NCBI RefSeq assembly: GCF_000315425.1
Contig: NZ_JH992922.1
Location: 1,403,234-1,467,233, forward strand
Reading direction: 5' to 3'
Source of the DNA: Massilia timonae CCUG 45783
GTDB lineage: Bacteria > Pseudomonadota > Gammaproteobacteria > Burkholderiales > Burkholderiaceae_D
DNA length: 64,000 nt
In this document: piece after piece, positions 58,516-64,000 of the stretch
Layout: every line of letters starts with the position of its first letter
Numbering within the stretch: position 1 is the first letter of the stretch
The notes under the pieces: model-generated
Seen by the model: only the letters and a program-made list of their open reading frames with translations
Database searches by the model: none
What the model was told of the DNA's origin: nothing
Position numbers and translations under genes: made by a program

Positions 58516-60099
58516 ATGCTCGACGCCCCGCTGCAATCGAGCGCCACGTCCACTCACAGCGCTGCGCATTCCGCCGAATTCCTCCGTGTGAAAGCGCAGG
58601 CCGAGCGCGGCGTCGCCCAGGCCCAGCACAGCCTGGGCTTCATGTACGTGAGCGGCCAGGGGGTGCCGAAGAGCGACGAGCTGGCGGTGGCCTGGTACCG
58701 GATGGCGGCGGCGGCGGGGCTGGCGCAGGCCCAGTACAACCTCGGCGTGATGTTCCAGAAGGGCCAGGGCGTCGAGCAGGACTTCGGCCAGGCGGCCCAC
58801 TGGTACGGGCGCGCGGCCGACCAGGGTTATGCGCCGGCCCAGTACAACCTGGGCTGGCTGTACGCGAAAGGCCATGGCGTGGCCAGCGACGTGGGCCGGG
58901 CGCTGCACTGGTTCAGCCAGGCGGCGGACCAGGGCGAGCCGGGCGCGCAGCACAACCTGGGCATGATGTTCGAGACCGGCAAGGGCGTGGCCCAGGACCA
59001 GGAAGCGGCGCTGCGCTGGTACCGGCGCGCCGCCGAGCAGGGCTATGTGCGCTCGCAGTACAACCTGGGGCTGCGCTACGAGGCCGGCCAGGGCGTGGCG
59101 CGCGACGTGCGCGAGGCGCTGGCCTGGATGCGCAAGGCGGCGGAGCAGGGCCATGCGCCGGCCCAGTTCAACCTCGGCCTGCGCTACGACAAGGGCCAGG
59201 ACGTCGAGCAGGACAGCCGGCAGGCGATCCTGTGGTACGGCCGCGCCGGCGAGCAGGGGCATGCCAGCTCGCAGTTCAATCTCGCGCTCATTTACGACAC
59301 CGGCCATGGCGTCCCGCGCGACGAAGCGCTGGCCCTGACGTGGTACCGGCGCGCCGCGGAACAAGGCCATGCCGGCGCCCAGAACAGCCTCGGCATGCGC
59401 CATGAACACGGACAGGGTGTGGCGGTCGACGCGGCGCAGGCGGCCGCCTGGTACCGGCGCGCGGCCGAGCAGGGGCTGCCGGCGGCCCAGTACCACCTGG
59501 GACAGTTGCTCGATGCCGGCAACGGGGTTGAGCAGGATCCGGCCCAGGCGACCGACTGGTATCGCAGGGCGGCCGAGCAGGGCCACCTGCGGGCCCAGTT
59601 CGACCTGGGCCTGCGTTTCGAGGCTGGCAACGGCGTCGAGCAGGACAGCGCGCAGGCGCTGGCCTGGTACCGGCGTGCGGCCGGCCAGGATTACGCGCCG
59701 GCCCAGTACATGGTGGGCGCGCTGCTCGACCGGATCGAGACCGGCGACCCGGTCGAGGCGACCGACTGGTTCCACAAGGCGGCCGACCAGAAGCACGCGC
59801 TGGCGCAGTTCGAGCTGGGGCTGCGCTACGACTGCGGCAAGGGCGTGGAGCGCGACTACGAGGCGGCCCATTTCTGGTACCTGTGCGCCGCGCGCCAGGG
59901 TCATGCGCGGGCCCAGTTCAACCTCGGCGTGATGTATGCGGCCGGGCAGGGCGCCCAGCGCGACCTGGTCGAGGCCTATGCCTGGCTGCACCGGGCCGGC
60001 GGCGCCGGCGTGGCGGCGGCCAACGCCTATCTGGCGAAGCTCGCGGGCCGGATGGAGGCGCAACAGTTGTCCCAGGCCGAGCGCCTGGTTGCTGGTTGA
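58516..60099 (+). CDS. Sel1-like tetratricopeptide repeat protein
   Basis: A 527-residue protein made almost wholly of about 13 Sel1-like repeats of 36 residues (consensus A-x-x-W-Y-R-R-A-A-E-Q-G-x-A-x-A-Q-x-x-L-G). The first is near residue 30. There is no signal peptide, so a cytoplasmic scaffold role is likely. It starts 6 bases after the REC-GGDEF-EAL gene and may serve as an interaction partner in the same pathway. The repeat DNA is highly similar between units. MLDAPLQSS is the start. Confidence 0.9.
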   Translation: MLDAPLQSSATSTHSAAHSAEFLRVKAQAERGVAQAQHSLGFMYVSGQGVPKSDELAVAWYRMAAAAGLAQAQYNLGVMFQKGQGVEQDFGQAAHWYGRAADQGYAPAQYNLGWLYAKGHGVASDVGRALHWFSQAADQGEPGAQHNLGMMFETGKGVAQDQEAALRWYRRAAEQGYVRSQYNLGLRYEAGQGVARDVREALAWMRKAAEQGHAPAQFNLGLRYDKGQDVEQDSRQAILWYGRAGEQGHASSQFNLALIYDTGHGVPRDEALALTWYRRAAEQGHAGAQNSLGMRHEHGQGVAVDAAQAAAWYRRAAEQGLPAAQYHLGQLLDAGNGVEQDPAQATDWYRRAAEQGHLRAQFDLGLRFEAGNGVEQDSAQALAWYRRAAGQDYAPAQYMVGALLDRIETGDPVEATDWFHKAADQKHALAQFELGLRYDCGKGVERDYEAAHFWYLCAARQGHARAQFNLGVMYAAGQGAQRDLVEAYAWLHRAGGAGVAAANAYLAKLAGRMEAQQLSQAERLVAG

Positions 60100-60170
60100 T
60101 GCACCGCATTTGAACCGGCAGCACGTGCGCACGGCTGCGCCAGCGCACCGTATGCGTAGGCACGCCGCGT

Positions 60171-60190
60171 TATACTGTATGCCCATACAG
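60171..60190 (+). promoter_or_regulatory. LexA (SOS) box overlapping a -10 element
   Basis: TACTGTATGCCCATACAGCC contains a perfect CTGT-N8-ACAG (60175-60190), the proteobacterial LexA consensus core. A TATACT -10-like element (60171-60176) overlaps its left arm. The box ends 13 bases before the radical SAM ATG. Confidence 0.8.
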
Positions 60191-60203
60191 CCACGCGCGC
60201 GCG

Positions 60204-61433
60204 ATGGAACTCAACGACAAGCTCGAAATCCTGGCCGACGCGGCCAAGTACGACGCATCCTGCGCCAGCAGCGGTGCGCCCAAGCGCGGCTCCGAAGGCA
60301 AGGACGGCCTGGGCGCCACCACCGGCATGGGCATCTGCCACAGCTATACGCCGGACGGCCGCTGCGTCTCGCTGCTCAAGATCCTGCTCACCAATTTCTG
60401 CATCTACGACTGCCAGTACTGCATCAACCGGCGCACCTCGAACGTGCCGCGGGCGCGCTTCGCGGTCGATGAAGTCGTGAAGCTGACCCAGGATTTTTAC
60501 CTGCGCAACTACATCGACGGCCTGTTCCTCAGCTCGGGCATCATCCAGTCGGCCGACTACACGATGGAGCAGCTGGTGGCAGTGGCGCGCCAGCTGCGCG
60601 AGGTGCACCAGTTCCGCGGCTACATCCACCTCAAGACCATTCCCGACGCCGATCCGCTCCTGATCCAGGAGGCCGGCCGCTGGGCCGACCGCCTGTCGGT
60701 GAACATCGAGCTGCCGACCCACGACAGCGTGACCCGCCTCGCGCCCGAAAAAAGCGTCCACACGATCAAGCTGGCGATGGGCTCGATCCGGCGCAAACTG
60801 GACGAAAAAGCCGAAGAGCCGAAGGCGCCGGCCTTCGCGCCGGCTGGCCAGAGCACGCAGATGATCGTCGGCGCCGACGCCAGCGACGACCACACCATCC
60901 TGAACACGGCCGAGACGCTGTACGGCAGCTACAAGCTCAAGCGCGTGTATTACTCGGCCTTCAGCCCGATCCCGCACAGCCCCGGCAGCGTGCCGCTGGC
61001 GCCGCCGCCGCTGCTGCGCGAGCACCGCCTGTACCAGGCAGACTTTTTATTGCGCGGCTACGGCTTCACGGCTGGTGAACTGATGCCGCAAACGGGCAAC
61101 CTGGCACTGGACGTCGACCCCAAGCTGGCCTGGGCCCTGGCCAATCGCGAGCACTTCCCGATGGACCTGAACCGGGTGGATGCGTCGCTGATCCCGCGCA
61201 TTCCCGGCATTGGCCTGCGCAACGCCAAGCGCATCGTCGAGCTGCGCCGCCTGCGCCGCATCCGCTGGGAAGATTTATCTCGCCTGCGTTGCAGCCTCAA
61301 GAAGCTGGCGCCCTTCGTCGTCACCGCCGACTACAAGCCGGCGCAGGGCGCGACCAGTTCCGAGCTGCTGCGCAAGCACATGGCCGATGCGCCGCAGCAG
61401 ATGAACCTGTGGCCCGAATTGCAGGCGGCATGA
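60204..61433 (+). CDS. Putative DNA modification/repair radical SAM protein
   Basis: A 409-residue radical SAM enzyme of the group defined by co-occurrence with UdgX (TIGR03916 type). The [4Fe-4S] motif is C66xxxC70xxC73 in NFCIYDCQYCINRR. Extra Cys residues occur at 20, 45 and 54. The C-terminal region has a helix-hairpin-helix-like DNA-binding segment (IPRIPGIGLRNAKRIVELRR). The reaction is unknown. It is preceded by a LexA box and overlaps the UdgX fusion gene by ATGA, so SOS-induced DNA repair is the likely setting. Confidence 0.9.
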   Translation: MELNDKLEILADAAKYDASCASSGAPKRGSEGKDGLGATTGMGICHSYTPDGRCVSLLKILLTNFCIYDCQYCINRRTSNVPRARFAVDEVVKLTQDFYLRNYIDGLFLSSGIIQSADYTMEQLVAVARQLREVHQFRGYIHLKTIPDADPLLIQEAGRWADRLSVNIELPTHDSVTRLAPEKSVHTIKLAMGSIRRKLDEKAEEPKAPAFAPAGQSTQMIVGADASDDHTILNTAETLYGSYKLKRVYYSAFSPIPHSPGSVPLAPPPLLREHRLYQADFLLRGYGFTAGELMPQTGNLALDVDPKLAWALANREHFPMDLNRVDASLIPRIPGIGLRNAKRIVELRRLRRIRWEDLSRLRCSLKKLAPFVVTADYKPAQGATSSELLRKHMADAPQQMNLWPELQAA

Positions 61434-62992
61434 GCGCCAGCGCCGGCGCGGATGCCAATGCCAGCGCCGCCGCCCTCGCCGCGACCGCGGTGGCGAGCGT
61501 GCGCGCGGGCCAGCCGCTGCCGGTGGACGGTTTCACCGCATGGCGCGCGGTGGCGCGCGAATTGCTGCGCGCTGGCGTGCCGCCCGAGGCGGTGACCTGG
61601 GGCGCGCCGGGCGCCGACCTGTTCTCGGGTGCGCCGGCTTCCCAAGCTGCTGCGCATAATGGGGGCGACCTCCTGGCGACTCAAGCGGTTGAGCAGGAGC
61701 CTTCCAATGCAACGGCGCCAAGGCCGCATGTCCCTCGCTCCCTGATGGAGATGCTGCAGACCGCCGCCTGCTACCGCGATCACGACCGCTGGGCCTTCCT
61801 GTATCGGGTGATCTGGCGCTGGCAACAGGGCGAGCACGACGTGCAATCGCCCGCCGATCCGGACGGGCAGCGGCTGCACGTGATGGTCAAGGCGGTGCGG
61901 CGCGAGGTACACGATATGCACGCCTACATCCGATTCCGTGAACGGCCGATCGAGGCCGGCGCGCCCCATTTCGTGGCCTGGTTCGAACCCAGCCACGACG
62001 TCCTGCCGCAGGTGGCCGAGCATTTTGTGGCGCGCATGGGCAAGGTGAGCTGGATGATCGCCACGCCCGACGCCAGCGTGCTGTGGGACGGCGCCACCCT
62101 GCACCATACCGGCCCGCTGATGTCGAGCGCGGCCGACCTCGACGATGCGGGCGAGGCCCTGTGGCTGACCTATTACCGCAGCATCTTCAACCCGGCGCGC
62201 CTGAACACGCAGGTCATGAACAGCCACATCCCGTCGCGCTTCTGGAAGAACCTGCCGGAAGGCGCGCTGGTGCCGTCGCTGGTGAGCCAGGCCGGCCTCG
62301 GCGCGCGCCGCATCGGCCAGGTCGAGGCGGTAGGGCGGCGCAGCGGTCGCACGATCCCGATCGAAGCCGAACAGGCGCAGCCCGAGCGCCAGCAGCCGTC
62401 GAAGCTGGACGAGTGCCGGCGCTGCGACCTGTGGGAACACGCGACCCAGGCGGTCGGCGGCGAAGGGCCGAAGCACGCGCAGATCATGCTCGTCGGCGAG
62501 CAGCCGGGCGACCAGGAAGACCTGGCCGGCCAGCCCTTCGTCGGCCCGGCCGGCAAGCTGCTCGACCGCGTGTTCGAGCAGGCCGGCGTGGAGCGCAAGG
62601 GCGTCTACATCACCAACGCCGTCAAGCATTTCAAGTGGGAGCCGCGCGGCAAGCGGCGCCTGCACAAGACGCCGGCGCAGAAGGAGATCGAGGCCTGCCA
62701 CTACTGGCTCGAGAAGGAGATCGCCACCCGCAAGCCCAAGGTCATCGTGGCGATGGGCGCGACCGCGCTCAAGTCGGTGCTGCAGGCCGGCAGCGCGACG
62801 CTCAAGGACAAGCTGGGACGGCCCATACGCCATGGCGACAGCTGGGTGGTGACGATCTACCACCCGTCGTACGTGCTGCGCGTGCCGGACGAGGCGTCCA
62901 AGCACGAGGCGTTTTCGGTGATGGTCAAGGGCTTGAAGCTGGCGCAGGAATTATTGGACCGGCCAGATGTGCCGGAGCCGCCGGAAAGCTGA
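61430..62992 (+). CDS. DUF4130 - UdgX uracil-DNA binding/glycosylase fusion
   Basis: A 520-residue two-domain protein. Residues about 1-300 match the probable DNA metabolism domain (DUF4130, TIGR03915 type), with CYRDHDRWAFLYRVIWRWQQ and NSHIPSRFWKNLPEG. Residues about 325-515 are UdgX: Fe-S Cys pair CRRCDL at 329 and 332, motif GEQPGDQEDLAGQPFVGPAG, and the diagnostic insertion loop RGKRRLHKTP with His412, equivalent to the His that UdgX links covalently to the abasic sugar. Motif HPSYVLR is near the end. Coupled to the radical SAM gene. Confidence 0.92.
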   Translation: MSASAGADANASAAALAATAVASVRAGQPLPVDGFTAWRAVARELLRAGVPPEAVTWGAPGADLFSGAPASQAAAHNGGDLLATQAVEQEPSNATAPRPHVPRSLMEMLQTAACYRDHDRWAFLYRVIWRWQQGEHDVQSPADPDGQRLHVMVKAVRREVHDMHAYIRFRERPIEAGAPHFVAWFEPSHDVLPQVAEHFVARMGKVSWMIATPDASVLWDGATLHHTGPLMSSAADLDDAGEALWLTYYRSIFNPARLNTQVMNSHIPSRFWKNLPEGALVPSLVSQAGLGARRIGQVEAVGRRSGRTIPIEAEQAQPERQQPSKLDECRRCDLWEHATQAVGGEGPKHAQIMLVGEQPGDQEDLAGQPFVGPAGKLLDRVFEQAGVERKGVYITNAVKHFKWEPRGKRRLHKTPAQKEIEACHYWLEKEIATRKPKVIVAMGATALKSVLQAGSATLKDKLGRPIRHGDSWVVTIYHPSYVLRVPDEASKHEAFSVMVKGLKLAQELLDRPDVPEPPES

Positions 62993-63101: not shown

Positions 63102-64000
63102 ATGAGCAAACTCGCCGTACCTGCTTTCTGCATATGCATGCTGGCCGCTCCCGCCTGGGCGCAATCGGAAGATGCGACCGTCCCGGCGCAGGCCGCCGTC
63201 GATGTGCTTGAGACCGCCGCCGAACCGGCGCCGGAGCAGATCCACGTCGTGGCCCAGCGCCCCGGACCGGGCATGTGGAAGGTAACGAAGGGCGAGCACG
63301 TGTTGTGGGTGTTCGGCATGTACGGGCCGGTGCCAAAGAACATGCAGTGGCGCTCGCAGCAGGTCGAAAACGTCATCATGAATTCGCAGGAATACCTGTC
63401 GGCGCCAAGCGTCTCGGCCAGCCCGGGTTTCTTCAGGGGGATCACGCTGCTGCCAAGCTTCATCGGCATGCGCAAGAATCCGGATGGCGCAACCTTGCGT
63501 GACGTGATGCCGGCGGAGGAGTATGCGCGCTGGACCACGCTCAAGTCCAGGTACTTGCCCGAGAACGACGACGTCGAGCGCGAGCGCCCGATCTTCGCGG
63601 CGGAGGTGTTGTCGAACGCCGCGCGCAAGCAGGCGGGCCTGGTCGACAGCTACGCGGTGCGCAAGCCGCTGCTGGACCTGGTCAAGAAGGCGAAGCTGAA
63701 GGAGACCTCGTCGACCTTCCAGCTGCCGATGGACAATGCGCGCACGGTGCTGAAGAACTTCAAGAAATCGACCCTGGGCGACGCCGCCTGCCTGGCGCGT
63801 ACGATGGCCACGCTGGAGCAGGACATCGAGGCCGCCAGCCAGCGCGCCAATGCCTGGGCCAAGGGCGATATGGATGAAATGCGCAAGCTGGATTTCGCCA
63901 GCCGCGAAGAGGCCTGTTCCGGCGCCCTGATGAACAGCGCGGCATTCGATGCCGAGCCCGAATTCAAGCATATGAGGACGCGTGCGAACGAAAAATGGAT
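63102..64000 (+). CDS. TraB/GumN-like protein, 3' end beyond window
   Basis: An open frame from ATG 63102 runs off the window edge (299 codons visible). The signal peptide is MSKLAVPAFCICMLAAPAWA. The mature N-terminus has GMWKVTKGEHVLWVFGMYGP followed by KNMQWRSQQVENVI, which matches the LWxVxxGxxxLYLFGTxHxLP...W pattern of TraB/GumN proteins. The metal-site GTxH equivalent is GMYG, so the His is absent. The usual second motif lies beyond the edge. A diverged family member is the best description; function unknown. Confidence 0.75.
   Translation, partial: MSKLAVPAFCICMLAAPAWAQSEDATVPAQAAVDVLETAAEPAPEQIHVVAQRPGPGMWKVTKGEHVLWVFGMYGPVPKNMQWRSQQVENVIMNSQEYLSAPSVSASPGFFRGITLLPSFIGMRKNPDGATLRDVMPAEEYARWTTLKSRYLPENDDVERERPIFAAEVLSNAARKQAGLVDSYAVRKPLLDLVKKAKLKETSSTFQLPMDNARTVLKNFKKSTLGDAACLARTMATLEQDIEAASQRANAWAKGDMDEMRKLDFASREEACSGALMNSAAFDAEPEFKHMRTRANEKW

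Follow-up and report, generated by a model that had tools for sequence, protein, structure and literature searches.

A LexA-boxed operon of Massilia timonae joins a radical SAM-DUF4130 gene pair to a UdgX domain that some of its relatives lack

LexA control of a COG1573-COG4277 operon has been predicted in Bacteroidetes, where the operon was regarded as a putative base excision repair system, and SOS control of a system based on a uracil-DNA glycosylase (UDG) had earlier been reported in Verrucomicrobia and Alphaproteobacteria (PMC8565304). DUF4130 has been described as a predicted mutagenesis-related enzyme, tied to SplB-like photolyases or radical SAM proteins and to UDGs (PMC3765255). Radical SAM genes, possibly of other families, have also been listed under LexA in Streptomyces venezuelae (PMC9380542) and in the SOS networks of Gram-positive bacteria and Balneolaeota (PMC7739468). 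UdgX itself is used in genome-wide methods, and its precise physiological role is described as largely unknown (PMC10359453). Here we describe an operon at 60171-62992 of a 64,000-nucleotide stretch (the window) of the 6.1 Mb genome of Massilia timonae CCUG 45783, in which a radical SAM gene is followed by a gene that fuses DUF4130 to UdgX (coordinates are given in Table 1). An earlier note made from the DNA letters (the original prediction) had put the operon forward as the best candidate for an undescribed system; as an SOS operon this is not supported, because SOS control is in PMC8565304, for other phyla, and the ties of DUF4130 are in PMC3765255. In the Pseudomonadota sampled, the SOS box follows the radical SAM-DUF4130 pair rather than UdgX, a separation that we did not find in print in a limited literature search.

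The putative operator, CTGTATGCCCATACAG, holds the perfect CTGT-N8-ACAG core that had been predicted 13 bases before the operon, and the predicted ATGA coupling of the two genes was located at 61430-61433. The core was also said to overlap a -10-like hexamer. TATACT does so, and this or similar letters lie 5' of the box in many orthologue upstream strings, although a strict sigma-70 scan of 60080-60260 returned no promoter pair. The bare core alone proves nothing, because its count across the genome is near chance (36 sites, versus 33 for a reversed-pattern control); the window has one match, versus 0.37 expected per window. We also used a weight matrix built from the boxes of family orthologues, minus 20-mers identical to that of the window, which is not independent of close kin, several same-genus relatives sharing the window's 16-letter core. 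This matrix gave the window box a score of 27.8, compared with 7.5 for the runner-up position in the window; across 20 mononucleotide shuffles, the maximum averaged 9.4 and reached 17.5 at most. Among the core sites of the same genome, the top score (35.6) belonged to a PA0069-family radical SAM gene, and the boxes of parE (34.0), imuA (32.4), lexA (31.8; its product scored 235.7 bits), dinB (30.9), a gene for a FAN1-like nuclease (26.1) and ruvC (21.1) also scored highly; other high-scoring sites (e.g., L064, L001, L067 and L006; L and G numbers are our labels for loci and genomes) were not tied to a gene. The nuclease gene (PF21315, PF18081; L063:1-1269) starts 12 nt behind its box, and a C5 cytosine methyltransferase gene (PF00145; L011:459-1442) lies 59 nt behind a box scoring 19.2.

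The original prediction had proposed looking for CTGT-N8-ACAG upstream of homologous operons. In the family, a perfect core lay within 60 nt of the start codon, at 9 to 32 nt, in 50 of 54 orthologues (the 55 other genomes with a match, minus L092, which holds only a fragment), with varying letters on either side of the core; the genomes are related and the boxes comprise 37 distinct 20-mers, so these are not 50 independent events. The mean count of LexA-type motifs in shuffled sequences for this set was 0.5. In a wider set of named loci, the best 80 of at least 592 relatives and thus leaning to close kin (the closest radical SAM protein among them being that of Massilia aurea, with 95% identity), 63 matched one of five LexA-type motifs perfectly within 150 nt upstream, compared with a mean of 0.8 and at most 4 in shuffled upstream regions. 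A further ten had a CTGT box with one mismatch, which in L165 (Verrucomicrobium) is probably a chance match, and seven had neither (L142, L146, L148, L153, L156, L176 and L201). A perfect LexA-type match was present in 29 of the best 30 loci of a phylum search (shuffled mean 0.3). The loci with neither a perfect match nor a one-mismatch CTGT box were L018, L019 and L044 in the family, L044 having a core 167 nt upstream of its start, and L093 in the phylum search. Most boxes were of the GAAC-N7-GAAC or GTTC-N7-GTTC type if from Alphaproteobacteria, and of the CTGT-N8-ACAG type if from Beta- or Gammaproteobacteria, so that predicted SOS control survives changes of LexA type between classes. Because the box is kept in orthologues, scores far above the rest of the window and the shuffles, and is matched by high-scoring boxes before lexA, dinB and other genes of the same genome, we regard it as confirmed at the level of sequence.

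We searched 398 Pseudomonadota genomes with TIGR03916 (radical SAM), TIGR03915 (DUF4130) and TIGR03914 (UdgX), using the curated cut-offs, and found matches in 84, 87 and 78 genomes, respectively; a control genome, that of Caulobacter vibrioides, matched all three. DUF4130 was present in 84 of 84 radical SAM genomes (phi 0.978), no more than 250 nt away in 76 of them. For UdgX the corresponding figure was 63 of 84 (phi 0.722), and 15 further genomes had UdgX with no radical SAM match. Because limited candidate scoring can miss genes, the 21 loci lacking UdgX over the cut-off were read directly, and no UdgX domain lay behind the radical SAM gene in 20 of them; G578 has a divergent fused UDG domain that falls below the TIGR03914 cut-off. 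When every candidate was scored for a stand-alone UdgX in 18 genomes, one was over the cut-off (Pseudoxanthomonas, where DUF4130 is unfused), seven were under it and ten gave no match. The ten included all eight Pseudomonas genomes searched, each of which has the radical SAM gene and gave no UdgX match at E 0.001; DUF4130 was visible behind that gene in seven of them, the contig of the eighth ending first. The pair also occurred without fused UdgX in six of six loci from Bacteroidota, Clostridia and Fusobacterium (L205-L210), or seven of seven with L093 (G268) included. When 181 distinct radical SAM proteins were placed on a tree (UdgX being present in 141 and absent from 40, the latter partly sought out, so that the set is no survey), parsimony gave 11 changes of the UdgX label, versus a mean of 36.6 for shuffled labels. 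As read from this tree, UdgX was repeatedly gained or lost along lineages.

The boxes remained where UdgX was missing. Among the 21 operons in which UdgX did not reach the cut-off, 14 had a perfect box (G578 being one of them), five a one-mismatch CTGT box and two none; 18 of the loci contributed 12, five and one to these classes, and G268, G293 and G376 two perfect boxes and one operon with none. Away from the pair we located a further 17 UdgX genes, of which 13 were in genomes without DUF4130 over the cut-off and four were second copies. Just one had a proteobacterial-type box (GAAC-N7-GAAC), and that gene bears a remnant of DUF4130. Another had a match to GAAC-N4-GTTC, the Gram-positive type, which is probably due to chance, and a further UdgX gene with a DUF4130 remnant had no box.

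Some loci appear to be in decay. L092 (G115) holds the tail of a radical SAM gene together with DUF4130-UdgX, and L211 and L213 hold UdgX with a DUF4130 remnant, L213 keeping a LexA-type box; all three are probably decaying operons. Two viral copies were present in IMG/VR, both at loci cut by contig ends.

The explanation that best accommodates all of these results, which we put forward tentatively and at somewhat less than an even chance, is that the radical SAM protein and DUF4130 form an obligate, SOS-induced lesion-processing pair, to which UdgX is an accessory. Because the pair is nearly constant and UdgX is optional, the core pair probably repairs some lesion other than the uracil or abasic target of UdgX.

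The first protein of the operon matched TIGR03916, which we take to be equivalent to COG4277, at 529.3 bits (cut-off 343.5), and has the CX3CX2C cluster motif in a partial barrel that marks the radical SAM superfamily. Six cysteines were invariant in 188 distinct homologues, i.e., the three of the cluster motif (C66-X3-C70-X2-C73) and three nearer the N terminus (C20-X24-C45-X8-C54). The latter may form a second metal or thiol site; residues 28-54 were modelled at pLDDT <50, although several invariant residues lie there. The original prediction had also given this protein a DNA-binding helix-hairpin-helix (HhH). While the family assignment was well above its cut-off, the match to PF12836 was weak (19.9 bits versus a Pfam cut-off of 27). 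R332, P334, G335 and G337 of the HhH are invariant in homologues, and the region had profile matches to ComEA and RuvA with E values of 0.01-0.08; it probably binds DNA.

A radical SAM protein with a likely DNA-binding motif, behind an SOS-type box, would suit direct reversal of ultraviolet-induced pyrimidine photoproducts in the manner of spore photoproduct lyase (SPL), with DUF4130 as a helper, and the associated radical SAM proteins are called SplB-like in PMC3765255. We consider this quite unlikely. The protein gave no match to PF20903, the SPL model, at E 0.1, while the same model was positive in B. subtilis. The fold matches listed were led by HydE and lipoyl synthase, and SPL was not among the 50 rows shown, which does not imply its exclusion. 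Moreover, a distinct radical SAM protein, of the PA0069 family, is encoded in the same genome behind its own LexA box. A relationship to lipoyl synthase (LipA), suggested by the fold rows, was rejected: the hhalign probability was 0.7%, and the cysteine spacing differs from the auxiliary-cluster motif of lipoyl synthase, which we take to be CX4CX5C and which this protein does not match.

The fusion of DUF4130 to UdgX with its KRRLH loop was as predicted, both profiles being over their cut-offs. The UdgX domain scored 259 bits with TIGR03914 (cut-off 189.95), and its best solved match was the UdgX structure 6ajo (E 4.5e-48). GEQPG, the KRRxH loop with its histidine, HPS-x-x-LR (motif B) and the conserved cysteine are all present, and His412 aligns with His109 of Mycobacterium smegmatis UdgX, whose role in cross-linking is described in PMC10359453. 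Loss of this histidine in relatives, which the original prediction had named as evidence against itself, was not seen: all 160 UdgX rows of sufficient length for a judgement retain it (163 rows were aligned, not deduplicated, and three short ones set aside). The sequence thus supports an intact cross-linking loop, and covalent bonding is predicted.

These results bear on the pathway originally predicted, in which UdgX covalently captures uracil or abasic sites and the radical SAM protein then processes or reverses the link between UdgX and DNA. The conserved histidine fits such a pathway, as do the direct adjacency of UdgX and DUF4130 (64 of the 65 genomes with both) and the separate UdgX over the cut-off in Pseudoxanthomonas. 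However, a capture step is hard to reconcile with the 21 of 84 genomes that lack UdgX over the cut-off, with the eight Pseudomonas genomes and the searches for a stand-alone protein described above, or with a box that follows the pair. In addition, UdgX occurs in 13 genomes without DUF4130, so its cross-links must be resolvable without the pair. We therefore consider this pathway improbable. From the original prediction, the SOS-type operator, the operon, the protein families and the UdgX loop stand; the novelty as an SOS operon and the capture step are not supported.

The DUF4130 domain scored 193.9 bits with TIGR03915 (cut-off 112.25) and 126.7 bits with PF13566 (cut-off 27); the second protein was scored against NCBIfam without its first methionine. 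H161, R202, W245, Y248, N254 and R257 were among the residues invariant in 175 rows, a count that excludes the rows from Bacteroidota, Clostridia and Fusobacterium, which fell below the 80% coverage filter. By sequence there was no credible solved relative (best E 0.66). A hint from the VIA list that the domain might be a DHHA1 domain is kept as no more than a lead: Foldseek support was weak and profile comparisons with the DHHA1 domains of AlaRS and RecJ were null (one misplaced row, L261, had been removed from the RecJ alignment). A separate comparison with the PADLOC defence models gave no match at E 0.01.

The co-occurrence in 84 of 84 genomes and close spacing in 76 would also be expected if the radical SAM protein were a maturase that modifies DUF4130 (or UdgX) into an active repair protein, and its nearest folds include a maturase, HydE, and an activase, the pyruvate formate-lyase activating enzyme. 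These fold matches reflect the barrel that radical SAM enzymes share and say nothing about function, and the likely DNA-binding HhH lies on the radical SAM protein itself; we give this explanation a slim chance. Least probable of all is that the pair modifies DNA or RNA rather than repairing it (e.g., by a sulfur insertion or a methylation through which damaged DNA is marked or protected), for which the extra cysteines and the fold matches to sulfur-inserting radical SAM enzymes could be cited, but against which stand the lack of a LipA profile relation, the different cysteine spacing and SOS timing, which better suits repair.

For the pair reading, the genes found near the operon, or behind a box like its own, may hint at the type of lesion. 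In 15 of 112 loci (L093-L204) the operon had a neighbour resembling imuA, imuB or dnaE2, divergent in ten and co-directional in five, although one genus (g150) accounts for several of the divergent cases and the flanks read extend for only 1.5 kb in many loci. In L185 (Alteraurantiacibacter) the order is imuA-imuB-radical SAM-DUF4130/UdgX-dnaE2. Four alphaproteobacterial proteins (two ImuA, an ImuB and a partial DnaE2) were all below the curated NCBIfam cut-offs, and the ImuB-like protein scored under polymerase IV models, so these imu names rest on similarity; ImuA of the window's genome was over its cut-off, at 231 bits. Two orphan DUF4130 genes, L228 and L229 (G410 and G480), face an imuA-like gene across a single GAAC-N7-GAAC box, L228 with UdgX and L229 without, and no radical SAM match was found in the 7 kb read.

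In three Xanthomonadaceae in which the usual motifs failed, the palindrome GTCTCA-N5-TGAGAC occurred at 25 sites with no more than one mismatch, and a reversed control at none. Ten of these sites preceded such genes: the radical SAM gene and a TIGR03817-type helicase gene in all three genomes (one helicase site being mismatched), and, at a single site apiece, uvrA, imuA, an SRAP gene and a PA0069-type radical SAM gene, the last three with one mismatch. The other 15 were inside open reading frames, before other open reading frames (one of them YgjP-like) or near none. The palindrome has the look of an operator for an SOS-like regulon, possibly one under a second LexA. The TIGR03817-type helicase that we tested was closest in the Protein Data Bank (PDB) to YprA (6znp, E 2.8e-155), which we take to be MrfA, the mitomycin repair factor. 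This link to MrfA, UvrA and FAN1 provides circumstantial evidence for bulky or crosslinked lesions. In the window itself, the 5' neighbour of the operon (58516-60099) encodes a protein of many tandem repeats, Sel1-like to judge from the look of the sequence, and a further gene starts 3' of it at 63102.

Table 1. Features of the operon, with positions in the window, and groups of related loci
Feature	Position or loci	Strand	Basis or remark
-10-like hexamer TATACT	60171..60176	+	sequence; runs into LexA box
Putative LexA (SOS) operator CTGTATGCCCATACAG	60175..60190	.	13 nt 5' of ATG at 60204
Radical SAM protein TIGR03916, 409 aa	60204..61433	+	profile match, invariant Cys
N-terminal region carrying the three further invariant Cys (C20, C45, C54)	60261..60365	+	homologue alignment
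Radical SAM cluster motif CIYDCQYC	60399..60422	+	sequence; three Cys invariant in homologues
Probable helix-hairpin-helix, R332-x-PG-x-G337	61164..61250	+	PF12836 match below cut-off, invariant residues
DUF4130-UdgX fusion, 520 aa	61430..62992	+	start overlaps stop of radical SAM gene
DUF4130 (TIGR03915) domain	61526..62260	+	TIGR03915 and PF13566 profiles
UdgX (TIGR03914) domain	62366..62941	+	TIGR03914 profile; 6ajo structure match
R-loop KRRLH	62651..62665	+	His412 codon 62663-62665
Loci divergent beside, or (L185) inside, a translesion cassette	L185, L144, L145, L154, L177, L112-L115, L119, L120		
Xanthomonadaceae palindrome sites before named genes	L295-L300, L302, L308, L313, L318		

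If the radical SAM protein and DUF4130 are an obligate pair, we infer the following sequence of events. LexA would repress the operon via the box at 60175-60190, and DNA damage would lift this repression alongside that of the translesion polymerases. The working unit would be the radical SAM protein with DUF4130 as its obligate partner, the former binding damaged DNA through its HhH and the latter positioning or recognising the DNA. A 5'-deoxyadenosyl radical would take a hydrogen from the lesion, and the three-cysteine site, as a further iron-sulfur cluster or a thiol relay, might accept or donate electrons or hydrogen. The likeliest targets would be bulky or crosslinked lesions at stalled forks, where ImuA-ImuB-DnaE2 also acts. 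UdgX, as an optional module, would serve to trap uracil or abasic sites or to tether the complex. A bolder version, which we consider possible but unlikely, is that the pair represents a new class of repair enzyme, i.e., an SOS-induced two-cluster radical enzyme that directly unhooks or reverses bulky or crosslinked lesions, distinct from photolyase, SPL and reversal of the AlkB type; UdgX would then be an add-on that was repeatedly gained or lost.

Several observations weigh against an obligate lesion-processing pair. Co-regulation fits any SOS function and names no lesion. The second cluster is a guess, the N-terminal cysteine region being modelled at low confidence, and the HhH match is under the Pfam cut-off. 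The radical SAM gene is patchy in the family (56 of 195 genomes and 11 of 44 genera), and UdgX is fused in most members. DUF4130 occurred without a radical SAM match in three genomes, at a contig edge in G393 and in the G410 and G480 loci already mentioned. The genome counts scored no more than four candidates per genome for TIGR03916 and seven for TIGR03914, and could therefore have missed some radical SAM genes or stand-alone copies of UdgX. Start codons were set by a mechanical rule, and the counts include related genomes. Finally, none of the tested boxes lay within 150 nt of the six Bacteroidota, Clostridia and Fusobacterium loci (L205-L210), in a scan that did not include the Bacteroidetes motifs of PMC8565304.

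The partners of UdgX nevertheless appear as a tighter unit, often without UdgX and still with its SOS box, which shifts the question from uracil to another lesion. If the pair does attack lesions by radical chemistry, about one-fifth of the Pseudomonadota sampled (84/398) would possess a new repair reaction, as would some Bacteroidota, Clostridia and Fusobacteriota.

Among known systems, the operon is close to the COG1573-COG4277 operon (PMC8565304), with which it shares a two-gene layout, a UDG-family protein and predicted LexA control. It differs in that the pair is constant and UdgX variable, and in its operator, CTGT-N8-ACAG in a Massilia-like betaproteobacterium. The imuA-imuB-dnaE2 cassette is likewise LexA-boxed in the same genome (at imuA) and neighbours the operon in the 15 loci described above, but it is a polymerase module and was not seen beside the operon in most of the loci read, many of them short. 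Enzymes of the SplB/PA0069 type resemble the first protein as radical SAM enzymes tied to DNA damage, the PA0069 protein of this genome being also LexA-boxed, whereas our protein has no SPL profile match, six conserved cysteines, an HhH tail and DUF4130 as a partner. The second protein resembles M. smegmatis UdgX (PMC10359453) in GEQPG, KRRxH, HPS-x-x-LR and the conserved cysteine; the mycobacterial protein stands alone (a 209-residue PDB chain), whereas here UdgX is fused behind DUF4130 and LexA-boxed.

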